Below are positions 3,894 through 21,512 of a DNA stretch of 32,469 nucleotides, one piece after another. The stretch lies in assembly GCA_017410455.1 (NCBI GenBank), contig JAFQQT010000055.1, forward strand, positions 1 to 32,469, given 5' to 3'. The notes under the pieces were generated by a model, which saw only the letters and a program-made list of their open reading frames with translations, did not search any database and was not told the DNA's origin. The position numbers were made by a program, and so were the translations under genes. Source of the stretch: Clostridia bacterium (GTDB taxonomy: Bacteria > Bacillota > Clostridia > Christensenellales > Aristaeellaceae). Positions within the stretch are counted from its first letter, which is position 1, and every line of letters begins with the position of its first letter.

Positions 3894-5300
3894 TTACGCC
3901 CGGAACAGCTCCCGGATCTTCAGCTTGTCGATCTTGCCCGTAGCGTTCAGGGGCATCTGTTCGAGGATCCGGATCTCCGTGGGCATCTCGAGCTTGTTGA
4001 GCGCCGCCCTGACGGCTTCCTCATCGTAAGCGGCTCCCTTCCTGAGCACGATGGCCGCCACCGGCACCTCGCCGTTCTTCTCATCCTCCAGGCCGATGAC
4101 TGCCACCAGATCAACAAAGGGCAGCTTCAGCAGCTTTTCCTCAATGTCCAGGGGGGAGAGGTTGTTGCCGTTGCGGATGATGATCTCCTTCTTGCGGCCC
4201 GAGATGTGCAGGTAGCCCTCCTCGTCGAAGTAACCCAGATCGCCGGTGTGGAAGAACTTGCTGCGGTCGATGGGCGCTTCGCCATAATAGCCCAGGAAGA
4301 GTGCCGGGCCCTTGACGGTGATCTCGCCGTCGGCCTCGATCTTCACGCGGTTCATCGGCAGCACGCGGCCCACGGAACCGGCGCGCTTTTCGTCGGGCTC
4401 CTGGGAGCCTGCGCCGGAAATGCCCGCGATCTCCGTCATGCCGTAAGCCGGCACGAGCTTGGTCTTCAGGACGTCCTGGATATACATGAACTGCTCGAAG
4501 GTCACCGGCGCGCCGGCGATGACAAAAGCCTTCATGGAGCTGGTGTCATAGCCCTTCTGGCGCTGGACGTCCGCCATCATCAGCGCAAAGGTGGGCACGA
4601 AGCCGAAGCGGGTGATGCGGTACTTCTCGATGCACTGCAGCACATAATCCGGGGTGACCTCCCTGGGGAAGAAGAGCGGGCAGCGGCGCAGAACGCCATC
4701 GACGATCTGCGTGAAGCCGAACACATGGAAGATGGGCAGCAGCTGCATGCCGCTGTCGCGCTTGGCGTAGCCTGCCGCGGGCCGGTAGTTCCGCTGATGG
4801 TTCACATAGCCGTACTGGCAGAGCATGACGCCCTTGCTCCTTCCGGTGCTGCCGGAGGTGAAGATCATGATGGCAGGCGCGAAGATGTCAATCTCCGGCC
4901 TTTCGATTTCACCGCACAGCTCGTCAAAGGGGATCTCCTCGCCATCGATGACAAAGCCCTCTCCCACGCTGTCCAGAGCCAGCTTGAGCGGCACGTCGAT
5001 CCCCAGCTCTTCCTTGCACTTGGCAATGGGCGCATGGGGATCGAACATCACCGCCACCGCACCCAGGTACTGCGTGGCCAGGAAGACCATCACGGCATTG
5101 ATGGTCCTGGAGCCGGAAATGCCGACATAGTCGCCCTGCTCAACCCCCTTCTCCCGCAGGAACGCCGCCACCGCGCGCACCTTCTGCAGGGTTTGCGGAG
5201 CCGTATAACGCCTTGTTTCGGAATGGAGGAACACCTTGTTGGGGCAGGTTTTTGCAAAGCTCTCCAGATAGCTGATCAGACCACGTTTTACCGGTCGCAT
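3894..5300 (-). CDS. Acyl-AMP ligase / acyl-CoA synthetase-like protein
   Basis: This is a class I adenylate-forming enzyme of the FadD/AMP-binding family, which activates a carboxylic acid with ATP for transfer to CoA or a carrier. The phosphate loop IFTSGSTGRSKG, the A5 motif AYGMTE, the HTGDLGYFDEEGYL segment, the hinge region GRKKEIIIRNGNNLSP and the C-terminal catalytic lysine (Lys456 in NATGKID) are all intact. At 468 residues it is a stand-alone ligase with no fused carrier or transferase domain. I chose the ATG at 5300 because the GGAGG at 5311-5315 is 10 bases away; the ATG at 5309 would sit only 1 base from it. It is divergent from the SDR/MBOAT genes and followed on the same strand by the beta-helix gene. 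The substrate cannot be read from sequence. A paralog lies at 20058-21512. Confidence 0.88.
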   Translation of the reverse strand: MRPVKRGLISYLESFAKTCPNKVFLHSETRRYTAPQTLQKVRAVAAFLREKGVEQGDYVGISGSRTINAVMVFLATQYLGAVAVMFDPHAPIAKCKEELGIDVPLKLALDSVGEGFVIDGEEIPFDELCGEIERPEIDIFAPAIMIFTSGSTGRSKGVMLCQYGYVNHQRNYRPAAGYAKRDSGMQLLPIFHVFGFTQIVDGVLRRCPLFFPREVTPDYVLQCIEKYRITRFGFVPTFALMMADVQRQKGYDTSSMKAFVIAGAPVTFEQFMYIQDVLKTKLVPAYGMTEIAGISGAGSQEPDEKRAGSVGRVLPMNRVKIEADGEITVKGPALFLGYYGEAPIDRSKFFHTGDLGYFDEEGYLHISGRKKEIIIRNGNNLSPLDIEEKLLKLPFVDLVAVIGLEDEKNGEVPVAAIVLRKGAAYDEEAVRAALNKLEMPTEIRILEQMPLNATGKIDKLKIRELFRA

Positions 5301-5509
5301 ACGAAACATACCTCCTGATTTTTCATTTGTTCTCAGCAACTCTGCTCCGGAACGATTGCGTTCCGCAGCGGAAACAGATGCTGTTGATGTGAACCCTCTG
5401 TGAAATATTATTTCGACATGCCGTTCAATTCCCCTTCACATTCAATCACCATCAAAGCCACTGTACGTCCTCATTTTCATGCTGTTCGTCCAACAAACGT
5501 CCATTCCTC

Positions 5510-5538
5510 TTGCGTTTCGTCCCTGTATCCGATATAAT
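5510..5538 (+). promoter_or_regulatory. Predicted sigma-A promoter for the SDR/MBOAT operon
   Basis: A perfect TATAAT lies at 5533-5538, with TTGCGT at 5510-5515, separated by 17 bases and located 46 bases before the SDR start. The surrounding 5400-5580 region is clearly more AT-rich than the flanking genes. The -35 matches only 3 of 6 consensus bases. Confidence 0.55.
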
Positions 5539-5584
5539 TGTTGCAAATATTCAGCTGATCATCACATACAGGGAGGATACCATC

Positions 5585-6313
5585 ATGAGGCTTATTCACA
5601 AAGTCGCCATAGTAACAGGCGGCGCATCCGGCATCGGTCTGGCCATCGCTGACCGTTTCAGGGAAGAAGGCGCGACCGTCTGCGTGTTCGATATTGCAGG
5701 CGGCGAGGGCTGCTATCATGTGGACGTCACCAAAGAAGACATGATCACCGCCGCCGTGGACGACGTGATCCGCCAGCATGGCCGGATTGACATCCTGGTC
5801 AACAACGCCGGCACGTCCGGAGCGGATCTGCCCACACACCTGATGGATGCTGACGCCTGGGACGCGGCCTTCGCCGTCAACGTCAAGGGCGTGATGCTCT
5901 GCACCAAGGCGGTTCTGCCCCACATGATCCGGCAGGGCGGCGGCAGCATCGTCAATCTGTCCTCGATCTATGGCACCCACGGCACCAAGGGCTCCCTGAC
6001 GCCCTACCACGCCACCAAGGGCGCCGTCCTCGCCCTCTCCCGGCAGGACGCTGTCACCTATGGCGGCAACAACATCCGCGTGAATACGCTGCTGCCCGGC
6101 GCCATCGCCACCCCGCTCCTGGAGGAGTACGGCAACCGCGTCTTCCCCGGCGGCTTTGCGCAGTATGAGAGCTACGCCTCCCGCCACACGCCCCTGCGCC
6201 GCATCGGCGAGCCGAAGGACGTGGCCAACGCCGCCCTGTTCCTGGCCAGCGACGAGGCGAAGTTCATCACCGGCGCTGAACTGGTCATCGACGGCGGTTT
6301 CACGGTCTGGTGA
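5585..6313 (+). CDS. Short-chain dehydrogenase/reductase (SDR)
   Basis: A 242-residue classical SDR oxidoreductase using NAD(P)H. It has the cofactor motif TGGASGIG (residues 11-18), the NNAG motif, a catalytic Ser (probably Ser127) and the YHATK active site (Tyr141, Lys145). The C-terminal GAELVIDGGFTVW is typical of FabG-like and sugar-alcohol dehydrogenases. The acidic residue after the second strand (VFDIAGG) suggests NAD rather than NADP. The start at 5585 follows GGGAGG by about 8 bases; an upstream frame extension lacks such a site. It is cytoplasmic. It precedes the MBOAT gene by 80 bases on the same strand, so it may be co-transcribed and may make or modify the donor group, but this is inference. 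FabG-like, glucose-type or 3-hydroxyacyl substrates cannot be told apart here. Confidence 0.9.
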   Translation: MRLIHKVAIVTGGASGIGLAIADRFREEGATVCVFDIAGGEGCYHVDVTKEDMITAAVDDVIRQHGRIDILVNNAGTSGADLPTHLMDADAWDAAFAVNVKGVMLCTKAVLPHMIRQGGGSIVNLSSIYGTHGTKGSLTPYHATKGAVLALSRQDAVTYGGNNIRVNTLLPGAIATPLLEEYGNRVFPGGFAQYESYASRHTPLRRIGEPKDVANAALFLASDEAKFITGAELVIDGGFTVW

Positions 6314-6393: not shown

Positions 6394-7755
6394 ATGCTCT
6401 TTTCCAGTCTGACTTTTCTGCTCTACTTTCTGCCCCTGGTGATCCTGCTGCACTATGTGCTGCCCAAGCGGTTTCAGAATGCGTTTCTGCTGCTGGCCAG
6501 CCTGGTGTTCTACGCCTGGGGCGATGCGCAGCAGGTGCCGCTGTTTGGCACGCTGCTGCTGGCAAACTGGGGCTGCGGGCGGCTGATCGACGCCGCGAAG
6601 GCGCCCCTCGCGCGGCGGCTGTTCCTCACCGCAGGCCTGGTGCTGGACTTCGGCGCGCTGTTCTTCTACAAATACATCGCCTTCGTGTTCGACGTTCTGG
6701 GCCTGGAATCCGGCTTTGTTTCCGGCATCACGCTGCCGCTGGGCATCAGCTTCTTCACCTTCCAGGCGGCGGGCTACCTGGTGGACATCTATCGCCGGGA
6801 GACGCCGGCGGAGAAGAGCTTCATCAACTTCGGCGCGTTCCTTTTCCTCTTCCCACAGCTCATTGCAGGCCCGATCATCCGCTACAGCGATATGTCGCAG
6901 GCCCTGCACGAGCGGCGGCGGCCCAGCGCGCAGAAGCTGGAGAGCGGCATGGGGCTGCTGGTGGCGGGCCTTGCGGCCAAGGTGCTGCTGGCCAATCCCC
7001 TGGGCGAGGCGTTCAACGCCCTGTATACGCCGGATGCGGACTCCCTGCGCACCTGGGCGGCGATGCTGGCATCCATCATGCAGATCTACTTCGACTTCAT
7101 GGGCTATTCCGTCATGGCCGTGGGCCTGGGCAGGATGATGGGCTTTGAGTTCACCCGCAACTTCAATCACCCCCTGGCCGCCACCTCCGTTACGGAATTC
7201 TGGAAGCGCTGGCACATCACCCTGAGCGTGTGGTTCCGGGACTATGTGTACATCCCTCTGGGCGGAAGCCGCAAGGGCCCCCTCCGGACGCTTCTGAACT
7301 CCTTCATCGTCTGGAGCCTGACGGGCCTGTGGCACGGCGCGGCATGGAACTTCCTGCTGTGGGGCATTTCCTTCTTCGTGCTGCTGACGCTGGAGAAACT
7401 CACCCAGAAGCTGCGCGCCAGATGGCCCGGCTGGGTGAAGTACCTGCTCACGGCCCTTGGCATCTCCACCAGCTGGCCGCTGTTCATCACCGCAGATCTG
7501 AGCGGCTACGGGGAGTTCATGGCCTCGCTGTATTCCTTCCGCTTCAGCGCGGAGAGCCTCTTCTGGCTGCGGGAATACGCCGCCATCATCCTGCTGGGCA
7601 TGCTCTTCTGCGCCCCGCCGGTGGTGGAGGGCCTCAAGCGCCTCTGCCGCCGCCATGCCTGGCTGCGCGTGGCGGCCGTGGCGGGCACGCTCCTGCTGTG
7701 CATCGCCTCGCTGGTCAAGTCATCCTACAATCCGTTCCTGTACTTCCGCTTCTGA
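6394..7755 (+). CDS. MBOAT O-acyltransferase (AlgI/DltB-like)
   Basis: A 453-residue polytopic membrane protein of the MBOAT family, which carries acyl groups across the membrane for transfer to extracellular polysaccharide. It opens with the family's LFSSLTFLLYFLPLV start and contains TLPLGISFFTFQAAGYLVDIYR, FPQLIAGPIIRY, TEFWKRWHITLSVWFRDYVYIPLGG and LWHGAAWNFLLWG. The last motif holds the invariant histidine, His314. Its length matches bacterial AlgI homologs (about 450-500). A GAGG site lies about 9 bases upstream. The next gene, a DHHW protein, starts 6 bases after its stop, an arrangement well known in Firmicutes (MBOAT, DHHW, SGNH, DUF4358). The acyl group and acceptor are not visible from the sequence. 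Confidence 0.95.
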   Translation: MLFSSLTFLLYFLPLVILLHYVLPKRFQNAFLLLASLVFYAWGDAQQVPLFGTLLLANWGCGRLIDAAKAPLARRLFLTAGLVLDFGALFFYKYIAFVFDVLGLESGFVSGITLPLGISFFTFQAAGYLVDIYRRETPAEKSFINFGAFLFLFPQLIAGPIIRYSDMSQALHERRRPSAQKLESGMGLLVAGLAAKVLLANPLGEAFNALYTPDADSLRTWAAMLASIMQIYFDFMGYSVMAVGLGRMMGFEFTRNFNHPLAATSVTEFWKRWHITLSVWFRDYVYIPLGGSRKGPLRTLLNSFIVWSLTGLWHGAAWNFLLWGISFFVLLTLEKLTQKLRARWPGWVKYLLTALGISTSWPLFITADLSGYGEFMASLYSFRFSAESLFWLREYAAIILLGMLFCAPPVVEGLKRLCRRHAWLRVAAVAGTLLLCIASLVKSSYNPFLYFRF

Positions 7756-7760
7756 GAGGG

Positions 7761-8861
7761 ATGAAGATGCTGAACTTACGGAAGATGCCGGCATTCTGCC
7801 TGGCAATGCTGATGCTGATCGCGCTGGCCGTCACCCAGTGGCTGCTGCCGGCCCAGGAGATCAGCGAGATGGAGAACCGCGTCCTGGCGCAGAAGCCCAC
7901 GCTGACTCCTGACCGCTTCTGGTCGGGCGCATACGCCACGGAGCTGGAGCAGTTCGCAGCGGATCAGATGCCCCTGCGCGACGGTTTCGTATCCACCTAT
8001 GCCACGATGCAGGCTATCCTGGGCCGCCGGACGTCCAACGACGCCCTGCGCGGCAAGGACGGGTTCCTCTTTGACACCTCCGCCGTCTACACCCAGCGCA
8101 ACCTCAGCCAGAACACCGACGCCCTCAGGGGCCTGGCGGAGCAGTCGGGCAAGCAGCTCTGGGTGCTGGCCGTGCCCACCGCCGCTGCGGTGTATGCCGA
8201 GAAGACCCCGGCCTACGCTCCCCTGGGGGATGACGAGGCCAGCCTGGCCGCCGTTGCGCAGGAGGTGCAGCTGATCCCGCTGCTGGACGCCATGCGCGCC
8301 CGGGAGGATCAGCAGCTCTACTACACCATGGATCACCACTGGACGGCGGCGGGCGCCCGCGTCGGCTACGAGGCGGTGTGCAGCGCGCTGGGGCTGGAAG
8401 TGCAGCCCGAGGGAAACATCGTATCCCGGGAGGGCTTCTACGGCAGCTTCTACGCCCGCTATCCGCTGCCCTGGCTGAAGGCCGACGTGCTGACCTATGA
8501 GGCCCCCGAAGGCGTGCGCCTCCTCATCGACGGCGTGGAGCAGGATACCCTGGCAGATGAAGCGGCCCTGCAGGGCCGGGACAAATACGCCGCGCTCCTC
8601 CACGGCAACCACGGCTGCATCGAGCTGATCAACGATGGCGTGGATTCCGGCGTGCTGCTGGTGATCAAGGACTCCTACGCCAATGCGCTGCTGCCCCTGC
8701 TGGCCAGGAATTATCACCGCATCATCGCGGTGGATCCCCGCTATTTCACCGGCGATATCATCGCGCTGGCAACACAGTATGAAGGAGAGGATATTCTATG
8801 CGTATGTGGAATCGGCACGCTGGCCTCCAGCCGCATCATCGCGCTGATGGAAGGCTTCTGA
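7761..8861 (+). CDS. DHHW-family protein (AlgX/AlgJ-like O-acylation partner)
   Basis: This 366-residue protein has an N-terminal signal-anchor (about residues 9-28), so the body lies outside the membrane. It carries the family-defining Asp191-His192-His193-Trp194 and, near the C-terminus, VIKDSYANALLPLLARNY with Asp304 and Ser305. This layout resembles AlgX/AlgJ SGNH-like domains that complete O-acetylation of polymers with MBOAT proteins. It starts 6 bases after the MBOAT stop, and a GAGAGGG run covers the site. The last 64 bases overlap the next gene in another frame. The likely role is to take the acyl group from the MBOAT side and pass it to a surface glycan; that is inferred from family and neighbours. 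Confidence 0.92.
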   Translation: MKMLNLRKMPAFCLAMLMLIALAVTQWLLPAQEISEMENRVLAQKPTLTPDRFWSGAYATELEQFAADQMPLRDGFVSTYATMQAILGRRTSNDALRGKDGFLFDTSAVYTQRNLSQNTDALRGLAEQSGKQLWVLAVPTAAAVYAEKTPAYAPLGDDEASLAAVAQEVQLIPLLDAMRAREDQQLYYTMDHHWTAAGARVGYEAVCSALGLEVQPEGNIVSREGFYGSFYARYPLPWLKADVLTYEAPEGVRLLIDGVEQDTLADEAALQGRDKYAALLHGNHGCIELINDGVDSGVLLVIKDSYANALLPLLARNYHRIIAVDPRYFTGDIIALATQYEGEDILCVCGIGTLASSRIIALMEGF

Positions 8862-9568
8862 CGCTGCTGCTCCTGGCGCTGCTGATGCTGGGATGCGTCG
8901 CAGCGCAGGCCGAAACGCCCTCGCAGGGCGTGTGCCACCCGGATTACCCCGCTCCCCTGGCGCCGGAGCACGAACCCACCGGCGATGAGTACTTCACCGA
9001 CGCGGTCTTCGTGGGCGACTCGATGATGGAATATGTGGAGCTGCTGGGCGAGATCCCCACGGCCGAGTACGTCTGGCAGATCGGCATGGGGCCGGCAACG
9101 GTGGGCATCAAGCAGTTCCGCGTCCGGGGCGAAACGGAGAACTTCTCCGCGCTGGAGATGATCGCCCGCTGCGAGCCCCGCAAGATCTACATCATGCTGG
9201 GCGCCAATGGCCTGGACTGGTACCCCTCCGACACGGTGATCGCCGACTACGAGGTGATGGTGGATCAGCTCATCGCCCTCTGCCCGGAGGCGATGATCTA
9301 CGTCCTCTCCGCACCTCCCGGCTCAACCTCCATGATGGACCAGCTGGGCATCGTACCCGGGCGCTACGCGGACTTCGCCACCAAGCTGGAGGCGCTGGCC
9401 GCACGCAGGGACCTCTATTTCCTGGATCTGTACAGCATCCTGGTGGATGAGAAGGGCGCGCTGCCCAGGGTGTACGATTCCGGCGACGGCTTCCACATGA
9501 CCACCGCTGCCTATCAGCTGATGATCGACATGGTGCGCCGCCACACCGTGCCCTACCCCAACGAATGA
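8798..9568 (+). CDS. Secreted SGNH/GDSL hydrolase-like protein
   Basis: A 256-residue SGNH-fold protein with the nucleophile block VFVGDSMM (Ser75), the block III motif MLGANGLDW and the catalytic DGFH (Asp230, His233). This complete set suggests an active esterase or acyltransferase. The N-terminus is long and rich in Arg and His, followed by a hydrophobic stretch ending LMLGC (Cys33), a possible lipobox that departs from consensus. The chosen start is backed by AGGAGAGG about 7 bases upstream, although it makes the gene overlap the DHHW gene by 64 bases; no later start would keep the export signal. It acts outside the cell, probably trimming or transferring acyl groups on the same glycan as the MBOAT module. 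Confidence 0.9.
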   Translation: MRMWNRHAGLQPHHRADGRLLTLLLLALLMLGCVAAQAETPSQGVCHPDYPAPLAPEHEPTGDEYFTDAVFVGDSMMEYVELLGEIPTAEYVWQIGMGPATVGIKQFRVRGETENFSALEMIARCEPRKIYIMLGANGLDWYPSDTVIADYEVMVDQLIALCPEAMIYVLSAPPGSTSMMDQLGIVPGRYADFATKLEALAARRDLYFLDLYSILVDEKGALPRVYDSGDGFHMTTAAYQLMIDMVRRHTVPYPNE

Positions 9569-9586: not shown

Positions 9587-10063
9587 ATGAAACTCAGCAA
9601 GATCGCCCTGGTTCTGTGCCTGCTGATGCTGTGCATGGCGCTGACGGGCTGCGGCAGCACGCAGGCGAAGATCGACGGCATGACCTGCGCGCAGATCGCC
9701 GAAAACGTGCAGGCCGCCGCGTCCTTTGTGGCGCTGACGGACGTGAACGAGAGCTACCTGGAGAAGTACCTGTGGGTCGACGCGGAGAACCTGGAGGACT
9801 GGGTGATGCGCCGCGACGCCACCCGCGCCACGCCCGAGATGATCCTGGTGCTGAAGGTCAAGGCCGGCGTGGACGTGGCGGAGATCCGCCAGGCCGTTCA
9901 GGACTACCACGACGAGCAGACCGCGACCTACCGCGGCTATCAGCCGGCCCAGATGCCCAAGCTGGAAAGCGCCAGCGTCATGGTGCAGGGGCAGTACATC
10001 GTGCTGGTCGTGTCCCCGGACGCCGCCAGCGTCAACGCTGCGCTGGGCAGCGGCTGGAAGTGA
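9587..10063 (+). CDS. DUF4358 lipoprotein
   Basis: A 158-residue lipoprotein with a clear signal and lipobox (ALTGC, Cys22). The remainder matches DUF4358, a family of small Firmicute proteins that commonly sit next to MBOAT and DHHW genes. Typical features are the early 'ADV/ENV' helix and the VLKVKAG strand followed by an EIRQAVQDY helix. No catalytic residues are known. It starts 18 bases after the SGNH stop with GGAGG about 9 bases upstream, and is the last gene of the operon before a strong terminator. It may be an accessory or scaffold protein of the acylation complex; the exact job is not established. Confidence 0.85.
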   Translation: MKLSKIALVLCLLMLCMALTGCGSTQAKIDGMTCAQIAENVQAAASFVALTDVNESYLEKYLWVDAENLEDWVMRRDATRATPEMILVLKVKAGVDVAEIRQAVQDYHDEQTATYRGYQPAQMPKLESASVMVQGQYIVLVVSPDAASVNAALGSGWK

Positions 10064-10068: not shown

Positions 10069-10104
10069 AAGGCCTTGAAACACCTGTGTTTCAGGGCCTT
10101 TTTT
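10069..10104 (+). terminator. Rho-independent terminator of the first acylation operon
   Basis: A 15-base stem (10069-10083 with 10086-10100, one G-U pair) with a very tight loop is followed by a T-tract through 10104. It starts 6 bases after the DUF4358 stop and should end transcription of the SDR/MBOAT operon. Confidence 0.93.
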
Positions 10105-10336: not shown

Positions 10337-11008
10337 ATGAGTGAACAAGTGCAAAGCAAACTGAACCGGATGAAGAAGACCGCCAAGACCCTCAAGACCC
10401 TGACCACCATCACCTCGCTGCTGGTGGTTGTGCTGCTGGTGCTGTATCTGCTGCTGCCTGCCGCCAACCTGTATCTGGAGGGCAGCAGCTCCAAGTACGG
10501 CCGCGCAGGCGGTTACAACTATTATGGCTGGCAGCTGACCATCATCGGCTACGGCTATCCCCCCGTTGCGGCACTGGCCATGCTGGAGAATGCGGCGCTG
10601 CTGGCTGGCGACTTCATCCCCACCAGCTACGACTTCTATCCCAACACCACGCTGATCACGGCCATCATCGTGCCCATCATTGCGATGATCGTGCTGGGCA
10701 TCGTATCCGCCTTTATGAAGAACCGTGGCAAGGCTGTGTGTGAGTGGCTCACCTCCGGCGTGCTGATCTACGCCGGCGTGACGCTGGCCAACTGTGTAAA
10801 CCACGCCATCCCCATGGCCACCAACACAGGCACCACCACCTTCAGGAACAGCTACCTGATCCCCGCGGTCAACGCCGGCACCTTCACCACCTGCATCTTC
10901 CCCATCCTGATCTGCGCAGCGCTGGTCGCCATCGCGCTGTTCAAGGCTTACCGCGGCGTGTTCCTGCTCCAGCAGCGCGCCTACGCACGCAAGAACATCC
11001 GTAACTAA
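10337..11008 (+). CDS. Polytopic membrane protein, unrecognised
   Basis: A 223-residue protein with a basic N-terminal cytoplasmic segment and about four predicted membrane spans: roughly residues 24-46, 113-134, 140-160 and 185-207. The loop after the first span is rich in Gly and Tyr (around residues 55-75). I do not recognise a family. The start at 10337 has TTAGGAG about 7 bases upstream; the frame is open further upstream but lacks a site there. It sits 40 bases before a GH3 enzyme that is itself anchored in the membrane, which suggests a partner, for example for membrane placement or stability. No transporter motif is seen. Confidence 0.8.
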   Translation: MSEQVQSKLNRMKKTAKTLKTLTTITSLLVVVLLVLYLLLPAANLYLEGSSSKYGRAGGYNYYGWQLTIIGYGYPPVAALAMLENAALLAGDFIPTSYDFYPNTTLITAIIVPIIAMIVLGIVSAFMKNRGKAVCEWLTSGVLIYAGVTLANCVNHAIPMATNTGTTTFRNSYLIPAVNAGTFTTCIFPILICAALVAIALFKAYRGVFLLQQRAYARKNIRN

Positions 11009-14000: not shown

Positions 14001-14189
14001 GCCATGCAGGGCCTGGCTCCTGGCGATTCCGTCTACTACGAGACTTCCCCCTGGAAGCTCTGGCTGAACGCTGCCTGGATCATCGCCATCTCCTTCGCGG
14101 TTGTGGTCGTTGTGATCGACATCCTGGTCGCCACCAACGTCATCAAGCTCAAGGCCAAGACCAAGAAGGCTGAGGAAGATCAGTACTGA
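11049..14189 (+). CDS. Membrane-anchored, circularly permuted GH3 glycoside hydrolase
   Basis: This 1046-residue protein has GH3 domains in swapped order. The C-terminal GH3 domain (KTAEEGMVLLRN, about residues 79-90; PFGYGLSYTTF from residue 410) and a FnIII-like domain (about 430-530) come first. The TIM-barrel part, with GGRNYEYYSEDP (about 790), KHFVLNDQEAHRQ (about 824) and the predicted nucleophile Asp926 in ILTDAGG, comes last. The usual TDW is TDA here. This permutation is known in some Clostridia beta-glucosidases. A membrane span lies at each end (about residues 8-30 and 1008-1031), with a Lys-rich tail after the second, so the enzyme should form an extracellular loop tethered twice. 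Codon use is rich in GCT, CGT, GGT and GTT compared with neighbours, which suggests high expression. The sugar specificity is unknown. Confidence 0.93.
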   Translation: MKKTKIKFIAILSGIAAFVLAFTAIASSVMTSMSNDMDTLLGKGKAVKISSADLDGQYYDYQFDTEEEALKYAQAVTQKTAEEGMVLLRNDDSALPLKGDALKVTLLGYYGWHNNMSGGEDPATTYGAVSLYKGIEENTKILVNPNSSDQVLGMLVETESESCGQTCVNTSYTDYGSEFVAQALDAYKDSYAEYNTAIVTIKRNSGEGNDQVMNVASSTVANPDGTSYVEDEFNRTGLTLTLREMALIDYANKNFDTVVIVINAANTMELGFLQESDPNMSVVDGRTIYTDPYGSGMTMDVTNVKAAIWAGCCGSQGGYALANILTGDVNPSGHLPDIYARTLRNDPSYVNFGSFSYENSAELGSYADTTWFVEYEEGIYIGYRYHETAAAEAAKGNYEGYDYNTEVVYPFGYGLSYTTFSREFVGTPTYDAATETYTFQVKVTNTGSVAGKGVAQIYVNVPWEKGQVEKAHVVLGGFAKTEMLQPGKSETLTIEIKRDYFESYDYLKEKAYILDAGEYKFYLASDELGSHSWEAIDKMSAADQKKVVWSEKLDKKVVYNTEKRASDSVLATNAMDEELNWKFKTWNENVTPGDGYIYDFTRANFKGSFPTAPQGQDLVVTNEYAKKYIAKYVVAEDTENVTDEDGNVITSVPPMNVNNTSYTLSDMRGVDLDDPKWVDYIQQFTAESLANMYGNGGWGMPGDAENGVPATFDTDSPYGYYDHSGVASNNNRWYCGAPMLAATFNVKLAAEVGDAFGEEANCLRNEEAGVERINGIYAFGMNQHRSAFGGRNYEYYSEDPVLCGKMGAAEASAVAAKGLVVYMKHFVLNDQEAHRQDNGYCSFVNEQAFREVYLRAWELYIKEAECEMKYYDLVDNEYVMVTKKISAANGMMTAYNRIGGTYSGASLCINRILRAEWDFTGTILTDAGGEPHTYMTSDLALRRGQQLCLANNGETGLYDITSPVATTWLQKSGTYLLYNVANSNAMQGLAPGDSVYYETSPWKLWLNAAWIIAISFAVVVVVIDILVATNVIKLKAKTKKAEEDQY

Positions 14190-14273: not shown

Positions 14274-16058
14274 TTGAAGGAACGCATCAGAATCATTCTG
14301 ATCGCGCTGCTTTGCGCGGCGTCACTCCCCGCCTTCGTGCTTTCAATGTATGCCGCAAGGCATGAGGAAGCCTGGAACCCCTCCCCTGTTCAGGTCTGCC
14401 TGGAACAGGGCGAGGGTTTTGTGGCCAGGGCCTATATCCAGCAGGTCGAATCGGCGGGCGAGGCCGTCTTCCAGCTCCGGCTGCAGGAGAACTACGAGAT
14501 CGTCGCCTGCTCCTACCCGGACTATGCCATCACCGCCTCCCCGGATGGATTCACGCTGCTGACGCTCAGGAACGTCCGCTATCCCCAGCGGATCACCGTG
14601 CGCTGCCAGATCCCGACCTCCGTGATCAGCTACGACCCCAACGGCGGGAGCTTTGCGGCCAGCGGCAGCGCCGAGCCCCTGCGCGTCGCCTACGGCCCGT
14701 CGGTACACCTGCGGGTCAACACCGTCAGCGGCGCGGAGAGGATCATCCGGGACGACTATGTGCTCACGGGCTGGAACACCGCCCCCGACGGCAGCGGGCA
14801 GCACATCGGCCTGGGGAGCCGCGTCACGGCGGAAAAGAACCAGGAGATGACGCTCTACGCCGAATGGGCCCGGGAGACCCCGCTGGACCACTTCACCTGG
14901 GCCGAAACGGCGGATGGCGTTGCCCTCACCGCGTACCTGGGCGCGGGCGGCGCGTCCCTCGTGCTGCCCGATGACATCGGCGGCAGGCCAGTCACCGAAA
15001 TCAGCGCCGGGTTCGCCAGCGATATCACCCTGGAGCAGCTGGTGATCCCCGATACGGTGCTGCGCATCGCTGAAGGCGCATTCCGTGATTGCGCCATCGG
15101 GCACATCTTCTTCTCCGATACCCTGCAGCAGGTGTCGGACGCAGCCTTCCCGGGCAGCCGTCCCCGGTACTGGCACATCAACGCGGTCATTGCCCCGCGC
15201 TATCAGAGCATCAGCGACATTGCGACCTTCGCGGACAAGATGGATCTGCTGCTCCTCCACCAGGACGAAAGGAAGCTGTTGCTCTTTTCTGGCTGCAGCA
15301 TGAGCTTCGGCATGGATTCGCAGCTCCTGGCCGACGCCTGCCCGGATTACACGGTGCTGAATCTGGGCGCGGTGGGCGGCACGAACGCCCAGTTCCAGTT
15401 CGAGTGCATCCTGCCTTACATCCGCAGCGGGGACGTGCTCATCCACGCCCCCGAGCAGGCCAGCCCCTACCAGCTGATGAGCAAGATCAGCTGCGGCAAC
15501 CGCATCTTCATCGCCGTGGAGGGGAATTTCGATCTGCTGGCTCAGGTGGACATGACCACCCTGGGCGAGGGTGCCTTCGATTGCTTCTACGCCTTCAACA
15601 ACAAGCGCATGGCGATGGAGCCCTGCACCTACGAAGACCAGATGATCCCGCTGAATGCGTACGGCGATAATGCCGAGGTACGCGCAGGCGCCAACAAGAC
15701 CCGCTTCGATGAGGAATACGGCCTGCTGACGGAGCTGATCACCGCAGACGGGCTGGACCGCCTGGCCGGTTACTACGACCGCATCCGGGCGGCCGGGGGC
15801 GAGGTCTACCTGTCCTACGCGCCGATCAACTCCCTGTGCTGCGGGGATGCGGGACAGATCGCGGACTTCGCCGCCCGCTGGGAGCAGGGCATGCAGGCCC
15901 GGGGGTACGAAACCATCTCGGACCTGAATGACTACGTCATGGACGCGAAGTATTTCTACGATGCGGATTACCACCTGACCAGCTCCGGCGCAGAGATCCG
16001 CGCCCGGATGCTCACCCGGGACCTTCTCAGGAAGCTGCCCGGGGCCAGCGCAGAATAA
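14274..16058 (+). CDS. InlB-repeat / LRR / SGNH-like fusion surface protein
   Basis: The 594-residue protein begins with a signal-anchor (about residues 5-27). An InlB B-repeat (Listeria/Bacteroides repeat) follows at about 117-198, from VISYDPNGG to TLYAEW. A short BspA-type leucine-rich stretch (about 205-305, including LPDDIGGRPVTEISAGFASD) comes next, then an SGNH-like domain from about 330. That domain has FSGCSMSFG (Ser342; the Asp of GDS is Cys) and a C-terminal FYDADYHLTSSGA with Asp563 and His567. It is therefore a probable surface esterase/acyltransferase with binding modules in front. The start is TTG at 14274, supported by GGAGGGG about 6 bases upstream. It is a paralog of the protein at 17800-19236, which carries LRR on the other side of the SGNH domain, and it precedes an MBOAT gene. 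Confidence 0.85.
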   Translation: MKERIRIILIALLCAASLPAFVLSMYAARHEEAWNPSPVQVCLEQGEGFVARAYIQQVESAGEAVFQLRLQENYEIVACSYPDYAITASPDGFTLLTLRNVRYPQRITVRCQIPTSVISYDPNGGSFAASGSAEPLRVAYGPSVHLRVNTVSGAERIIRDDYVLTGWNTAPDGSGQHIGLGSRVTAEKNQEMTLYAEWARETPLDHFTWAETADGVALTAYLGAGGASLVLPDDIGGRPVTEISAGFASDITLEQLVIPDTVLRIAEGAFRDCAIGHIFFSDTLQQVSDAAFPGSRPRYWHINAVIAPRYQSISDIATFADKMDLLLLHQDERKLLLFSGCSMSFGMDSQLLADACPDYTVLNLGAVGGTNAQFQFECILPYIRSGDVLIHAPEQASPYQLMSKISCGNRIFIAVEGNFDLLAQVDMTTLGEGAFDCFYAFNNKRMAMEPCTYEDQMIPLNAYGDNAEVRAGANKTRFDEEYGLLTELITADGLDRLAGYYDRIRAAGGEVYLSYAPINSLCCGDAGQIADFAARWEQGMQARGYETISDLNDYVMDAKYFYDADYHLTSSGAEIRARMLTRDLLRKLPGASAE

Positions 16059-16095: not shown

Positions 16096-16329
16096 ATGGC
16101 GGACAGCGTGATCCTCAACACCCCGGTGCTGCTGCTGCTCTTTGCAGCGGCGCTGTTCCTGTGCGTGTTTGACAGGCTGCGCAAGGCCACAAGGGGCTGG
16201 TTCTCCGTGGTCGCCGCCATCCTGGCGGTGGCTGGCGCCGCCTGGGCGCTGATCCTGGGCGCAGGGACAGGGGAAGTGCTGACGGTGCTGCTGCTGTTCC
16301 TGTGCCTGAATCTGGAGGGTTGGAAATGA
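16096..16329 (+). CDS. Small two-span membrane protein coupled to MBOAT
   Basis: A 77-residue protein with two likely membrane spans (about residues 8-24 and 37-72, the second perhaps two short helices) and a short basic loop between them. A GGAGGG site lies about 8 bases upstream. Its stop overlaps the next MBOAT start in an ATGA arrangement, so the two are translationally coupled. Small membrane proteins coupled to MBOAT acyltransferases are known in the dlt operon (DltX), but this one does not obviously match DltX. A role as accessory subunit of the acyltransferase is inference. Confidence 0.75.
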   Translation: MADSVILNTPVLLLLFAAALFLCVFDRLRKATRGWFSVVAAILAVAGAAWALILGAGTGEVLTVLLLFLCLNLEGWK

Positions 16330-17786
16330 ACTTTAACTCTCTGGCCTTTTTGATCTATCTGCCCATCGTCGTGGGCGGGTACTGGCTGCTGCCCCACAGG
16401 GCGCGCAAGGTCTGGCTGCTGGCCGCCAGCTATTTCTTCTACGGCTACTGGAACCCGGCGTTCATTTTTCTGCTGCTGTTTTCCACCGCGGTGGACTACC
16501 TGTGCAGCGTGGGCATGGACAGGCACCGGGGCAAGCCGCTGGTCATGAAGCTGCTGATGATGACCAGCGTCATGATGAACCTGGGGCTGCTGTTCTCCTT
16601 CAAGTACTTCGACTTCTTCGCCGAGAACATCAACCTCCTCAGCGCCGCGCTGGGCTGGAGCTACCGGGTGCCGCAGCTGGGGCTGATCCTCCCGGTGGGC
16701 ATCTCCTTCTACACCTTCCAGACGATGAGCTACACCATCGACGTATACCGCGGCGACGTGCCGGCGGAGAAGGATCCCATCGCTTTCGCGCTGTTCGTGA
16801 CCTACTTCCCGCAGCTGGTGGCCGGCCCCATTGAAAGCGTCAGCAACCTCCTGCCGCAGCTGAAGAAGGAGCACACCTTCAGCCGGGAGGACTTCACCGC
16901 CGGCGTGCGCATCCTGCTGTGCGGCTTCTTCCGCAAATGCGTGGTGGCGGATTACTGCGGCATCCATGTCAACGCCGTGTTTGCCGACCTGGGCAGCGCC
17001 AATGCCCTGGCTATTGCCCTGGCGGGGAGCCTGTTCTGCATCCAGATGTACTGCGATTTCGCCGGATATTCCGAGATCGCCACCGGCTGCGCCCGGATGA
17101 TGGGCGTCCGCCTGATGCGCAACTTCGACCGGCCCTACCTCTCCCAGAGCTACACCGAGTTCTTCCGCCGCTGGCACATCAGCCTCAACCGCTGGTTCAC
17201 CAGCTATGTCTACATCCCCCTGGGCGGCAGCCGGAAGGGCGTGCTGCGCAAGAATCTGAACATCATCATCGTCTTCGCCCTGTGCGGCTTGTGGCACGGT
17301 GCGCGCTGGACCTATGTGCTGTGGGGGCTGTATGCGGCCATGTGGCTGTGCATCGAGAACGCGCTGGATATCAAAAAGCGCTTCGGCCCCCGTTGGCAGA
17401 CGCCGCTTGGCCGCCTCACCCGCAGGACCTACATGTTCCTGATCTTCATCCCCGCCGCGCTCCTGTTCCGCGCCGAAAGCCTGCAGCAGGTGGGCGTCAT
17501 CTTCAGCCGCCTGTTCACCGAGGTGGGGTTCGGCGAACAGTATGTGGCCGACAGCTTCCGCAGCCTTTCCATGAACGGCCTGACCATGGCGCAGATCCTG
17601 CTGAGCATCATCTGCATGGCCCGGATCTACACCCTTACGGAGAACGACCTGATCGTTTCGTCCGAGGGCACCCGCCGGGGGCAGCGGACGGCCGGTTACG
17701 CATTGCTGCTGCTGGTGATCGCCCTGGGGTGGATCGCCCTGCTGGCCACCGACGCGGCGGCGGGCTTCGCCTATTTCCAATTCTGA
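16326..17786 (+). CDS. Second MBOAT O-acyltransferase
   Basis: A 486-residue polytopic membrane protein of the MBOAT family. Motifs include NFNSLAFLIYLPIV at the N-terminus, LPVGISFYTFQTMSYTIDVYRG, YFPQLVAGPIES, TEFFRRWHISLNRWFTSYVYIPLGG and LWHGARWTYVLWG with the invariant His324. It is clearly related to the MBOAT at 6394-7755, but closer in layout to AlgI-type proteins with longer C-terminal spans. I chose ATG at 16326 (GGAGG 7 bases upstream) over an upstream GTG at 16302. It lies between two SGNH/LRR fusion proteins, which are the likely periplasm-side partners in place of the DHHW protein of the first module. The donor and acceptor are unknown. Confidence 0.95.
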   Translation: MNFNSLAFLIYLPIVVGGYWLLPHRARKVWLLAASYFFYGYWNPAFIFLLLFSTAVDYLCSVGMDRHRGKPLVMKLLMMTSVMMNLGLLFSFKYFDFFAENINLLSAALGWSYRVPQLGLILPVGISFYTFQTMSYTIDVYRGDVPAEKDPIAFALFVTYFPQLVAGPIESVSNLLPQLKKEHTFSREDFTAGVRILLCGFFRKCVVADYCGIHVNAVFADLGSANALAIALAGSLFCIQMYCDFAGYSEIATGCARMMGVRLMRNFDRPYLSQSYTEFFRRWHISLNRWFTSYVYIPLGGSRKGVLRKNLNIIIVFALCGLWHGARWTYVLWGLYAAMWLCIENALDIKKRFGPRWQTPLGRLTRRTYMFLIFIPAALLFRAESLQQVGVIFSRLFTEVGFGEQYVADSFRSLSMNGLTMAQILLSIICMARIYTLTENDLIVSSEGTRRGQRTAGYALLLLVIALGWIALLATDAAAGFAYFQF

Positions 17787-17799: not shown

Positions 17800-19236
17800 A
17801 TGAAGCGCAGAATTTGTCTGATCCTGGCCATCGTGCTGCTCTTCCCCGCCCTGATCGTGGGCTGCGACCTGAGCCAGCCCGCCGTCTACGGCGATACCTA
17901 CTACGCGCAGCTGCCCCATCTGTGGCAGAAGCTGCAGGACGCACCGGGCCGCAAGATCGTCATCGTCGGCGGCAGCAACGTGGCCTTCGGGGTGAATTCC
18001 GCCGCGCTGGAAGCCATGCTCCGGCAGCACGGGCATGATTACACGGTCTGCAACTTCGGCCTGTATGCCGCCGTGGGCACCAGCGCGATGCTCTCCCTGT
18101 CCGAGCCCTTCATCCGCGAGGGGGATATCGTGGTGCTGGCCATCGAGCCCACCAGCGAGACCTTCTCCACCTACTTCGGCGCAACCGCCATGCTCAAGTG
18201 CGCCGAGCAGCACCCGCAGATGCTGCTGCACCTGAACGCACAGCAGCGAAGCAACGTGGTGGGCAACTACATCGCCTACATGCAGGAGCGGGCCGCCATC
18301 CGCCGCTCGGGCGTTCTGCCCGACCCCAGGGGTGCATATACCCGGGCCGCCTTCGACGAAAACGGCGACATGGTCTTCGACCGCGCCGGCAACGCCATGC
18401 CCCTGGGGTATGACACATCCGCCCCCATCGACCTGGCCGCCTTCGCCTGCGAGGACGCCTTTGTCCAGCAGGTGAACGACTACATCGCCTCCGCTCAGGC
18501 AAAGGGCGCACAGGTGGTCATGAGCTTCAGCCCCATGAACCGCAGCGCCATGGCCGACGCCTCCCAGCAGACGGTGTACAGCTTCTACCAGCGCCTTGCG
18601 GAGACCTTCCGCTGCGCCATCATCTCCGATCCCAACGACTACATCATGGACAGCGGCTGGTTCTACGACACCAACTTCCACCTGAACAGCGCGGGCGCGA
18701 CCATCCGCACCTGCCAGCTGGGCTGCGATCTGCTGACCTGGCTGGGGACATCCGCGCAGACGGCCTTCGACATGCCCGAAATGCCCGCATCCATCGCCGA
18801 CGCCGGGGAGGATGCTGCAGACAGCGGCGATTTCCTTTTCCAGGCCGTGGGGGAGGCGGGGCTGGAGATCTGCGGCCTGACCGCCCGGGGCCTCGAAAAG
18901 GAGCAGCTGACCGTTCCCGCTTCCATCGACGGCAGGACTGTGGTGGGCGTCACCGCCGACGCATTTGCGGGCAACACGCGCCTGCAGGCGCTGACGCTGC
19001 CCGCAACCATCGAGCGCATCCCCAACGGAGCCTTCTCCGGCTGCACGAGCCTGACCCGGCTGACGCTGCTGCACCGGGACAAAACGCCCGACGTGGGAGC
19101 AGGGCTCTTTGATGGCGCGCCCGATCTGATGGTCTGCGTGCCGGCTGACGCCTATCCCATGTACAGGGATGGTGCGGGATGCGCCGCCAACGCCTGGGAG
19201 GCCTTCACTGACCGGATCGTGACCATCTCCCCCTGA
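17800..19236 (+). CDS. SGNH-like lipoprotein with C-terminal LRR domain
   Basis: A 478-residue predicted lipoprotein: basic start, hydrophobic stretch and lipobox LIVGC (Cys22). An SGNH-like domain follows with IVIVGGSNVAFG (Ser59) and FYDTNFHLNSAGA (Asp290, His294). From about residue 340 to 470 comes a BspA-type leucine-rich domain, including LPATIERIPNGAFSGCTSLTRL. It shares the ISDxNDYxMDxxxFYDxxxHLxSxGAxIR block with the 14274-16058 protein. GGGGAG lies about 6 bases before the ATG, and the gene starts 13 bases after the MBOAT stop. It most likely completes acyl transfer to, or removal from, a surface glycan. The LRR may bind the glycan or a protein partner. The GDS block is GGS here, so activity needs the Ser/Asp/His set to be confirmed. 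Confidence 0.87.
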   Translation: MKRRICLILAIVLLFPALIVGCDLSQPAVYGDTYYAQLPHLWQKLQDAPGRKIVIVGGSNVAFGVNSAALEAMLRQHGHDYTVCNFGLYAAVGTSAMLSLSEPFIREGDIVVLAIEPTSETFSTYFGATAMLKCAEQHPQMLLHLNAQQRSNVVGNYIAYMQERAAIRRSGVLPDPRGAYTRAAFDENGDMVFDRAGNAMPLGYDTSAPIDLAAFACEDAFVQQVNDYIASAQAKGAQVVMSFSPMNRSAMADASQQTVYSFYQRLAETFRCAIISDPNDYIMDSGWFYDTNFHLNSAGATIRTCQLGCDLLTWLGTSAQTAFDMPEMPASIADAGEDAADSGDFLFQAVGEAGLEICGLTARGLEKEQLTVPASIDGRTVVGVTADAFAGNTRLQALTLPATIERIPNGAFSGCTSLTRLTLLHRDKTPDVGAGLFDGAPDLMVCVPADAYPMYRDGAGCAANAWEAFTDRIVTISP

Positions 19237-19299: not shown

Positions 19300-20019
19300 A
19301 TGAGAATCAGGATTGCATTATGCGACAATGACAGCAAGGCGCTGCCCATTGTCGCAGGAGCCGTGGACGCCTCGTTCCAGGCCCACGGGTTTCAGACGGA
19401 CATTCATCGCTTTCAGGAGGCCAGCGCCCTGCTCAGCGCGCTGGAGGAAACGCACTATCAGCTGCTGCTCCTGGGCATTGAAATGCCGGATATGGACGGC
19501 ATTGAGCTGGCGCAGAAGATCCGTGCCAGCAGCATCGACGCACAGATCGTCTTTGTTTCCGAGGCGGAAAGCCGCGTGTTCGAGGCCTTCCAGGTGCAGC
19601 CGCTGGGCTTTGTGCGCAAGAGCCACTTCCTCGGCGACGTCTCCGCAGTGGTCGAGCTGTTCCTCAAAACCCTGGAGCAGAAGAAGAAGGACGAATACCT
19701 GGAGTTCACCACCCGCACCGGCCTTCTGCTGCTCAGGAGCCGCCAGGTTTCCTTCATCGAGGGCAGCAGGAACTATCAGCTGCTGAACGTGGAAGGCCGC
19801 AGCAACCCCGTCGTGCTCAAGATGACCATGGACAAGCTGGAGCAGATGACCAGCCCCCTCGGCTTCATCCGCATCCACAAGGGCTTCCTGGTCAACTACC
19901 AGCACATCCAGCAGCTCTCCTCCACCACCGCCGTGCTGCAGAATGGCGTTACGCTGCCCATCGGCCGCAGCAAGGCGCAGGAGGCAAAGCGCAAATACCT
20001 GTCGCTCATCGAAAAGTAA
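19300..20019 (+). CDS. LytTR-family regulator with degenerate receiver domain
   Basis: The 239-residue protein has a CheY-like receiver (about 1-125) and a LytTR DNA-binding domain (about 135-239, with FIRIHKGFLVNYQHI and LPIGRSKAQEAKRKY). In the receiver, the position of the phospho-acceptor Asp in LLLLxIEMPDMDG is Gly59 (codon GGC at 19474-19476). The acidic patch (Asp9, Asp11), the Ser of FVS and the Lys of FVRKS are kept. It is therefore a receiver that should not be phosphorylated in the usual way. AAGGAGGT lies upstream of the start. No histidine kinase is nearby. LytTR proteins often control cell-surface or secretion genes; here it follows the second acylation module and could regulate it. 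Confidence 0.92.
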   Translation: MRIRIALCDNDSKALPIVAGAVDASFQAHGFQTDIHRFQEASALLSALEETHYQLLLLGIEMPDMDGIELAQKIRASSIDAQIVFVSEAESRVFEAFQVQPLGFVRKSHFLGDVSAVVELFLKTLEQKKKDEYLEFTTRTGLLLLRSRQVSFIEGSRNYQLLNVEGRSNPVVLKMTMDKLEQMTSPLGFIRIHKGFLVNYQHIQQLSSTTAVLQNGVTLPIGRSKAQEAKRKYLSLIEK

Positions 20020-20021
20020 CG

Positions 20022-20050
20022 AAAAAGACCACCCGCACAAGGGGGTGGTC
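20022..20050 (-). terminator. Terminator of the second acyl-AMP ligase gene
   Basis: On the minus strand an 8-base perfect stem (GACCACCC at 20050-20043, GGGTGGTC at 20034-20027) with an 8-base loop is followed by TTTTT at 20026-20022. It lies 7 bases after the ligase stop. On the plus strand no T-tract follows, so it serves mainly the minus-strand gene, though the stem may also slow transcription from the LytTR gene. Confidence 0.85.
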
Positions 20051-20057
20051 GCAGACC

Positions 20058-21512
20058 TCAGCCGCGCCTGCGGGCTGAGAGCATGTCCCTGATCAGCACC
20101 CGGTCGGGCTTGCCGCTGGCCGTCAGGGGAATCCGGGAAACAAAGGCATAGAGCACCGGGCATTCATTCTTCGCAAGATCCGGGGTGAGCGTCCGTGCCT
20201 CCCCGTCCGCCACGACCATCGCCGCAGGGACTTCGCCCTGGCGATCATCCGCAATGCCCACGACAACAGCGTCCCGCACGCCCGGAAGGGCCAGCAGCGC
20301 CTGCTCAATCCGCGCGGGCGAGAGGTTGTTGCCGTTGCGGATCAGGATGTCCTTGATCCGCCCCGTCAGGTGGAGGATGCCATCGCCATCCACATAGCCC
20401 AGGTCGCCGGTGCGGATCATCTCCTCCTGAGGCATGGGCGAACCGTAGTATCCAAGCATGCGCGCAGGGCTATTGACGAGGATTTCGCCCTCCTCGCCCG
20501 GCGCAGCCGCCGAGCCATCCGCGCGCCGGATCATCCATGTGGTCCGGGGATAGAACCGGCCATTGCCGCGCAGGCGCAGCTCCTGCGGATCCAGGCTGGA
20601 GCCGATGGAGATGCTCGCGCATTCGGACATGCCGTAGGCCTGGATCAGCGTCATCCCCAGCCGCGCTTCGGCAAAGGCATACTGTTCGGGCGTGATGGGG
20701 CTGCCGCCCACAAAGCCCACGCGCAGGGAGGACAGGTCATAGCCCCCGCAGCGCTCCGCCATCGCCAGATACAGCGAGGGCACGCCGTTCATCCGCGTGA
20801 TCCGCTGCTCCTGGATGGTCGCAAGCAGGCCGGGCACATCCGCCCGGGGCGTGAAGCATGCGCTGTAGCCAAGGATGACCGTCCCCAGCAGCAGCACCAT
20901 GCCGAACACATGGTGGAAGGGCAGCGATATGAGGGCGATATCATCCTGCCGGTAATCGCCAAAGGGCTCGGCGTCCACGAGGTTGCTGATCAGATTGGCC
21001 TCGGTGAGCACCACGGCCTTGCTCTTCCCGGTGGAGCCGGAGGTGAAGATGATGAAGGCGGGCTCATGGGCGCTGGGCAGCACGCTGCCTTCCCCCACCG
21101 GGCCGGTCTTATGCAGGTCGAGCACCGTCTGTCCACCGCCCGGGCGAAGGAGCCAGTCGATGCGGAAGGTACCGTCCTCCGCCTGCGCGATATACGCCTC
21201 CACGGGGATCGGCGTTTCCGTGTGGGCCAGGGCCTCCTGAACCGGCTGACGGGGATCAAGCAGCACCACCACCGCACCTGCGGCCCGCAGCGCCAGCAGC
21301 GCAATGGCCGTCAGGGCGCGATTGCTGCAGGCGAGGGCCACATAGGCACCCCCGCCGAGCCCTTCGCGCCGGAAATAAGCGGCAGCCTGCTCCGTCAGGG
21401 CAAGCACCTGCGCCGTGTTCAGCCACTCATCGCCGCCGAACAGCCGCTTCCCCGGCTCCTGTTCCGCCCGCTCCCGCAGCCGCTGCAAGAGCCCCTTTTC
21501 AGCGTCCCCCAT
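20058..21512 (-). CDS. Second acyl-AMP ligase / acyl-CoA synthetase-like protein
   Basis: A 484-residue class I adenylate-forming enzyme. It shows the phosphate loop IIFTSGSTGKSKAVV, the A5-type AYGMSE, a TGDLGYVDGDGILHL segment, the hinge GRIKDILIRNGNNLSP and the catalytic Lys468 (TASGKPD). It shares the unusual RNGNNLSP hinge with the ligase at 3894-5300, so the two are paralogs. The GGAGG at 21519-21523 lies 6 bases before the ATG at 21512, which settles the start. It is a single-gene unit with its own terminator, divergent from the GH3 at 21679. No carrier protein is fused or adjacent, so acyl-CoA or a carrier encoded elsewhere is the likely product. The substrate is unknown. Confidence 0.88.
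   Translation of the reverse strand: MGDAEKGLLQRLRERAEQEPGKRLFGGDEWLNTAQVLALTEQAAAYFRREGLGGGAYVALACSNRALTAIALLALRAAGAVVVLLDPRQPVQEALAHTETPIPVEAYIAQAEDGTFRIDWLLRPGGGQTVLDLHKTGPVGEGSVLPSAHEPAFIIFTSGSTGKSKAVVLTEANLISNLVDAEPFGDYRQDDIALISLPFHHVFGMVLLLGTVILGYSACFTPRADVPGLLATIQEQRITRMNGVPSLYLAMAERCGGYDLSSLRVGFVGGSPITPEQYAFAEARLGMTLIQAYGMSECASISIGSSLDPQELRLRGNGRFYPRTTWMIRRADGSAAAPGEEGEILVNSPARMLGYYGSPMPQEEMIRTGDLGYVDGDGILHLTGRIKDILIRNGNNLSPARIEQALLALPGVRDAVVVGIADDRQGEVPAAMVVADGEARTLTPDLAKNECPVLYAFVSRIPLTASGKPDRVLIRDMLSARRRG

Follow-up and report, generated by a model that had tools for sequence, protein, structure and literature searches.

The question raised by the locus described here is what two AMP-forming acid ligases, LigA and LigB, contribute beside genes for MBOAT acyltransferases. 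The locus belongs to a genome of 3.3 Mb and 93 contigs from a Clostridia bacterium of the Aristaeellaceae (GCA_017410455.1), and the window, that is, the whole stretch of DNA that was analysed, is the entire contig C42 (JAFQQT010000055.1; 32,469 nucleotides). LigA and LigB lie on the minus strand and flank about 14 kb of plus-strand genes (every gene called at 5585–20019 is on that strand), which hold two MBOAT modules: module 1 with MBOAT1, a DHHW protein, SGNH1 and a DUF4358 protein, and module 2 with MBOAT2, the SGNH-like proteins SGNH_LRR and LRR_SGNH, and the small membrane protein sm77 (Table 1). A first-pass annotation, made from the sequence alone, had proposed that both ligases and both modules form one surface-glycan acylation system. 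In this study, we concluded that the link between ligase and MBOAT is genuine and follows the phylogeny of MBOAT2, and that the idea of one joint system finds no support.

GTDB contigs were scanned with an alignment of the ligases, giving 329 relatives; the best 80 were retained and divided by identity, at limits set after the scan, into 14 close (at least 33%) and 66 distant ones (at most 31%). All 14 close ligases stood beside an MBOAT, 13 at module 2 and one at module 1, in agreement with the first-pass view that the ligases belong with the MBOAT modules. These loci were 33–58% identical to LigA, their record titles named Clostridia, Firmicutes or an uncultured bacterium, and six of the 14 titles named an animal gut section; L076 and L077 are near-identical, so the loci are not all independent. 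The 13 module 2 loci carried SGNH_LRR and/or LRR_SGNH, and the single module 1 case (L073) is the same contig as G007:C6, from the window's genus. Among the 66 distant ligases, beside which MBOATs were sought with this genome's four MBOATs as the only queries, one lay near a generic MBOAT, about 3 kb off (L142), and none had the cassette. Nor was the cassette seen at other ligases (308–361 bits) in the ten class genomes viewed, over only 5.3 kb in L194; these ten were drawn from 15 other class genomes with ligase matches at E ≤ 1e-90, L164–L168 lying outside the view. The tightest form of the cassette was found in L085, where LRR_SGNH, ligase, sm77, MBOAT2 and SGNH_LRR are co-directional and the ligase, sm77 and MBOAT2 genes overlap; in L074 the order is LRR_SGNH, SGNH_LRR, ligase, a short-chain dehydrogenase/reductase (SDR) and an MBOAT2 cut by the contig end. 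Two variants were also observed: L079 has two tandem ligases from the two main subclades in one cassette (8293–11146), so that here too two ligases lie near one system, and in L296 a chloramphenicol-acetyltransferase-family gene (4999–5655, minus strand; PF00302, 6.6e-41) lies between the ligase and MBOAT2.

To avoid circularity, regions were also sampled independently of the ligase, with an SGNH_LRR profile. This genome included, matches were obtained in 4 of 391 class genomes (E ≤ 1e-30), 33 of 308 family genomes (E ≤ 1e-80) and 13 of 396 order genomes. For the family and order matches 58 regions were taken, together with L069 and, out of three class matches, L204, and removal of one overlap (L298 with L297) left 59, each reaching at most about 9–10 kb to either side and some ending at contig ends (L256, L259, L266, L277 and L290 among others). 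A ligase of the family of LigA and LigB (family ligase) was present in ten regions, in L256 cut by the contig end; two had a distant ligase and 47 no AMP ligase, nine of the latter without an MBOAT2 match. Two weaker class matches outside the 59 (L192 and L205) had no family ligase either.

A tree of 63 MBOAT2 proteins was built from the SGNH_LRR-led regions, the scanned loci and the window, excluding pieces of at most 250 aa (L074 included), L249, which is the L081 contig and was kept among the 59, and the L298 copy of the MBOAT2 that it shares with L297. On this tree the family-ligase label changed twice, against a mean of 18.9 after shuffling, with one gain in a clade supported at 98/94 and one loss (L251, which has a clear sm77 copy). 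The ligase was present in 23 of the 24 rows of that clade, and in 10 of 11 among the rows found through SGNH_LRR only. By the tree and the region counts, most members of the wider MBOAT2 family lack a ligase, and the ligase characterises a single clade, with hardly an exception. The first-pass annotation had called for a comparison of gene order and raised the possibility that MBOAT modules occur without ligases as a rule; this holds for module 1 (four of six loci inspected) and for the wide MBOAT2 family (47 of 59, some cut by contig ends), and fails in the window's MBOAT2 clade. Ligase and MBOAT share a strand in the 22 module 2 loci other than the window; only the window and G007 showed ligases in inverted orientation. 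A chance neighbourhood, or hitchhiking in sugar or envelope islands, has in its favour that the arrangement with two inverted ligases was not seen in the other loci; it is scarcely credible, being already contradicted by the one-gain phylogeny and by 23 further linked loci in several families.

LigA and LigB are full-length, two-domain ANL ligases with catalytic motifs (AMP-binding and AMP-binding_C in Pfam; RNGNNLSP in both), and they are 37% identical and mutual best matches within the genome. LigA keeps SGSTG, YGMTE, TGD, the hinge and the C-terminal Lys, and SGSTG, YG.[ST]E, TGD or SGD, and the C-terminal Lys are retained in all 17 aligned ligases, which form one clade (support 100/100) on a long stem. 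The fold was modelled for LigB, as a full-length adenylate-forming fold (mean pLDDT 88). Its first structural match is 4-coumarate:CoA ligase, and many aryl, dicarboxylic and fatty acid ligases follow within about 2 Z units, so no substrate could be inferred from the structure. The top NCBIfam models for both ligases were coenzyme A (CoA) ligases, none above its cut-off. Acetate-specific enzymes carry a pocket-closing Trp at the A5 position where these ligases have Gly; the invariance of this Gly in the A5 motif YG.[ST]E of all 17 ligases argues against acetate, and no acetate–CoA ligase was among the best 25 NCBIfam models. That the ligase merely recycles acetate to acetyl-CoA for ordinary Pat/Alg-type O-acetylation is thus very improbable, even though most relatives have no ligase and the known DHHW/PatA1 and AlgI systems acetylate, according to the part of PMC9487903 consulted.

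The absence of an acyl-carrier gene, noted in the first-pass annotation, was confirmed with a hidden Markov model built from 16 carriers, which recovered all 22 control loci (16 of which had supplied its training sequences). Six-frame open reading frames of at least 50 aa in the cassette loci and the window were scanned at E ≤ 0.1, and no match was found in the window or in the family-ligase loci scanned. Only L303:12596–12856 (5.3e-7) and L306:4471–4716 (3.6e-10) matched, each beside a distant ligase scoring 130 and 158 bits, respectively, with the family profile, where members score 435–758 and a cut one 106. Both carriers have the Ser motif WDS and match NCBIfam acyl-carrier models below cut-off; PF00550 matches that of L303 and not that of L306. 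In these loci (L303:12596–14660 and L306:3009–4716) a different AMP ligase and an adjacent acyl-carrier gene stand at the same MBOAT2/SGNH_LRR chassis, an apparently independent donor supply. As carriers occurred only there and never with a family ligase, and 47 regions were ligase-free, one MBOAT–SGNH chassis is seen with three donor supplies: no ligase, a family ligase without carrier, or another ligase with a carrier.

The main rival is a Dlt-like route in which the ligase loads its acid onto the housekeeping fatty-acid acyl carrier protein (ACP), from which the MBOAT draws. Such a route needs no dedicated carrier gene, and L303 and L306 show the MBOAT family paired with ligase and carrier. 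All 14 cassette genomes had at least one PF00550 match, one in eight genomes and three or four in six; these counts are lower bounds, since PF00550 missed a carrier-like gene on C2 of this genome and the L306 carrier. Its matches in this genome are confined to C21 and C64. Of the 29 ACP regions counted in the cassette genomes 20 were retrieved, and none of these fell within a ligase locus. We consider the ACP route unlikely, since the best models of the ligases are CoA ligases, whereas DltA models were outside the best 25 for LigA and LigB (at most 135 and 122 bits against cut-offs of 476 and 560) and a C2 protein of this genome scores DltA-like at 314 bits, also below cut-off, and since no carrier gene was found beside any family ligase in the loci scanned. 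Two further sets were seen in this genome. On C2 (L017, 8777–16658) a carrier-like gene, the DltA-like ligase, an MBOAT and a DltD-like protein form a Dlt-like set with two further adenylation proteins, flanked on both sides by GH3-like genes (read by eye). On C64 (L018, 4486–10231) a radical-SAM-like gene (by eye), PqqD, an AMP ligase, a carrier and a Pfam-less polytopic membrane protein form one run, which resembles another ligase–carrier–membrane set.

The Dlt pathway consists of the ligase DltA, the carrier DltC, the MBOAT DltB, DltX and the SGNH protein DltD. The cassette resembles it in joining an adenylating ligase, an MBOAT and an SGNH protein with an acyl-tyrosine motif. Long structural alignments were obtained between the SGNH_LRR model and DltD. 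The cassette differs from the Dlt pathway, however, in lacking a DltC-type carrier gene in the window and the family-ligase loci scanned, in a ligase that is not DltA-like by NCBIfam score, in having no DltX, with FxYFxF at the MBOAT's own C-terminus and not in sm77, and in having two SGNH-like proteins with LRR. Because carrier, DltA-type ligase and DltX were each looked for and not found, the cassette is, on its gene content, a predicted variant of MBOAT–SGNH acylation and not a Dlt system. Pat/Alg/Wss-type systems (PatAB, AlgIJX) are similar in having an MBOAT with a C-terminal FxYxxF, an SGNH partner and no carrier, and the PatAB-type features are present here: an MBOAT with catalytic His, the C-terminal FxYxxF and an SGNH partner with Ser-Asp-His (fold by model). 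In the parts of PMC9487903 and PMC9558356 consulted, the acyl donor of those systems is acetyl-CoA and a ligase gene goes unmentioned, whereas here the ligase is part of the cassette. By its NCBIfam name, TIGR03098 (exosortase A) is likewise an AMP-forming acyl-CoA ligase tied to another system, but LigA reaches 135 bits against its cut-off of 592. An SGNH–MBOAT operon and an acyl-CoA-ligase operon are mentioned separately in the part of PMC12419801 consulted. In a literature search by title and start of abstract, with subscription journals mostly outside its coverage, no description of this cassette was recognised.

The acyltransferase side of the cassette appears intact, with GLWHGA and the C-terminal FxYxxF acyl-shuttle motif in all 15 complete MBOAT proteins. 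For its SGNH partner, no SGNH domain was detected by Pfam, up to E = 1, in the 17800–19236 protein or in 12 relatives, nor did hhalign match SGNH_LRR to the SGNH1 and DHHW profiles. In the AlphaFold model (mean pLDDT 89), residues 32–317 adopt an SGNH fold, with LRR matches at about 338–478, and S59, D290 and H294 are invariant in 13 of 13 proteins, so SGNH_LRR is predicted to be an SGNH partner with Ser-Asp-His. LRR_SGNH shares this SGNH-like domain (hhalign 99.9%). Activity of both proteins was considered and is unsupported, the Ser and His positions of LRR_SGNH being lost in some (L082; L097 at Ser). The two are fused in one 975-aa open reading frame in L069 (5543–8470), and frames of about 1000 aa were seen in many family-search matches. 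As for sm77, a role as ligase-specific carrier substitute or DltX was ruled out: FxYxxF was absent from the window copy and from the nine others aligned (L076/L077 come close, but begin with Leu), and MBOAT2 genes without a ligase are also abutted by weak homologues, in L299, L301 and L069, and at E 0.001–0.008 in L257, L270 and L278. BLAST at 40 bits alone, which finds sm77 in 8 of 10 ligase regions and none of 47 others, would miss these.

GH3 genes were near the cassette in 10 of the 14 close-relative loci, and GH3 relatives were observed in 6 of 10 ligase-bearing and 30 of 47 ligase-free SGNH_LRR regions. The former count, the many esterases among SGNH folds and the six gut-section titles would fit degradation, in which dietary glycans lose sugars and acyl groups to GH3 and SGNH proteins and the freed acid enters metabolism after activation by the ligase. 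We hold this to be quite improbable, since the acyl-shuttle motif is intact in every complete MBOAT and the module 2 SGNH proteins of the window have a single N-terminal hydrophobic segment.

Module 1 tells a separate story. The DHHW gene adjoins MBOAT1 in the window and five relatives (PF14286 3e-20, gene order). In the consulted part of PMC9487903, the DHHW/PatA1 pair O-acetylates the secondary cell wall polysaccharide of B. cereus; module 1 likewise pairs MBOAT and DHHW, as PatA1/PatB1, but has a further SGNH protein, a DUF4358 protein and, in two of its loci (the window and G007), a ligase. Among the six module 1 loci inspected, weaker MBOAT1 matches falling outside the count, a ligase was present in these two and in none of the other four (G016, G030, G024 and G009), whose genomes had no LigA match at E ≤ 1e-50. 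MBOAT1 of the window and that of G007 pair in the tree (99/95), as would be expected if LigA had joined module 1 once, within the genus. The two ligases have separate histories: the neighbours of LigA in the tree are L073 and L074, those of LigB the ligases of MBOAT2 cassettes in genomes of the same family. The SDR is 54% identical to the copy between family ligase and MBOAT2 in L074; it was rejected as a fixed cassette part, being in the cassette only there and in the window and in none of 57 sampled regions with or without a family ligase.

The hairpin at 10069–10100 is strong and terminator-like, although 18 such sites were found against 10.4 expected and any single one is only suggestive. 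The order in G983 (L297) is hydrophobic protein (57%), GH3 (73%), SGNH_LRR, LRR_SGNH, sm77, MBOAT2. The hairpin and this conserved order suggest two units, the first from SDR to DUF4358 with LigA divergent, the second from the hydrophobic protein to LytTR with LigB convergent. One joint two-module system, with the ligases bracketing it, was rejected in view of the terminator-like site, the separate ligase histories and the modules standing apart in the relatives inspected.

We have proposed a model, which we judge reasonably probable, in which the ligases make non-acetyl acyl-CoA whose acyl group reaches the SGNH partner by way of the MBOAT C-terminal tyrosine and is finally placed on a polymer outside the cell. 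Each ligase would activate a carboxylic acid other than acetate in the cytoplasm, most likely to the CoA thioester, and the neighbouring MBOAT would take the acyl group from CoA with no dedicated carrier protein. At the outer face of the membrane, the acceptor within the MBOAT would be the tyrosine of its C-terminal FxYFxF tail, from which the group would go to the serine of the anchored SGNH partner, putatively SGNH_LRR in module 2 and DHHW or SGNH1 in module 1; this partner would then attach it to an extracellular polymer, probably a glycan. MBOAT2 would be served by LigB and MBOAT1 by LigA, so that two polymers of one cell may be decorated with two different acyl groups. A broader reading, to which we give somewhat less than even confidence, is that these loci represent a third class of envelope acylation, a carrier-independent, ligase-fed MBOAT–SGNH system with its own ligase clade and a swappable donor supply on one MBOAT–SGNH–LRR chassis, in which two ligases of different subclades and two MBOATs would put two different, non-acetyl acyl groups on two polymers.

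Table 1. Features of the window from LigA to LigB. Domain matches of LigA, LigB and MBOAT2 were obtained on versions with slightly longer starts.
Feature	Position	Strand	Basis
LigA, AMP-forming acyl/aryl acid ligase, 468 aa	3894..5300	-	PF00501 2.9e-52, PF13193; motifs; clade with L073 and L074
SDR, between LigA and MBOAT1	5585..6313	+	PF13561 8.4e-61
MBOAT1 (module 1), His motif GLWHGA, C-terminus FLYFRF	6394..7755	+	PF03062 3.4e-31; motifs; tree
DHHW/AlgX-type SGNH protein (module 1)	7767..8861	+	PF14286 3e-20, PF16822 7.3e-16
SGNH1, second SGNH (GDSL_2) protein, N-terminal hydrophobic segment (module 1)	8798..9568	+	PF13472 5.1e-15
DUF4358 protein, N-terminus lipoprotein-like (read by eye)	9587..10063	+	PF14270 6.6e-17
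Terminator-like hairpin after DUF4358, suggested close of unit 1	10069..10100	+	14-pair stem and T tract; consensus match only
Hydrophobic protein upstream of GH3, no Pfam family	10370..11008	+	kept before GH3 in L297 (57%)
GH3, reversed domain order, hydrophobic segment at both ends	11049..14189	+	PF01915, then PF14310, then PF00933
LRR_SGNH, repeat/LRR and C-terminal SGNH-like domain	14274..16058	+	sequence comparison; Ser/His not invariant in family
sm77, 77-aa membrane protein, overlaps MBOAT2 start by 4 bases	16096..16329	+	gene calls, alignment
MBOAT2 (module 2), His motif GLWHGA, C-terminus FAYFQF	16326..17786	+	PF03062 1.6e-29 (longer start)
SGNH_LRR, SGNH-fold domain, then LRR	17800..19236	+	invariant S59, D290, N292, H294; AlphaFold model
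LytTR response regulator	19300..20019	+	PF04397 7e-13, PF00072 7.8e-12
Terminator-like hairpin downstream of LigB	20027..20050	-	consensus match only
LigB, AMP-forming acyl/aryl acid ligase, 484 aa	20058..21512	-	PF00501 7.9e-60; model pLDDT 88; tree grouping

The gene content described in the first-pass annotation was borne out: two paralogous minus-strand ligases with RNGNNLSP around plus-strand genes, two different MBOAT modules, the first with DHHW, SGNH and DUF4358 partners by Pfam and the second with repeat/LRR/SGNH fusions (Listeria-Bacteroides-repeat and LRR matches of both large proteins below Pfam cut-offs), a tethered GH3 and a LytTR regulator. To these the SDR, sm77 and the hydrophobic protein were added. 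Elsewhere in the window, a GDP-fucose-type sugar-nucleotide set lies at 26042–32468 (minus strand), with a GDP-mannose dehydratase, epimerases, FucU, a GHMP kinase, a nucleotidyltransferase and a further nucleotidyltransferase with mannose-6-P isomerase and cupin domains. At 1619–3661 (minus strand) a protein of 680 aa is encoded that has SSGMPADDG-like repeats and a signal-like N-terminus, and a piece of a repeat protein resembling it was read by eye in L019 (13648–13983).

A conserved carrier-less set of ligase and MBOAT, in some uncultured bacteria, many of them from animal guts, suggests another donor supply besides acetate. The published MBOAT–SGNH systems, in the parts of the sources consulted, use acetyl-CoA with no ligase mentioned, or DltA with a carrier. 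If the proposed model is true, the MBOAT would be supplied directly with the CoA thioester of a chosen acid, which might stem from the host or the diet, and the sister loci with no ligase, ligase alone, or ligase and carrier would be a ready genetic test of MBOAT donor choice. A wider surface chemistry would then be expected for uncultured Clostridia.

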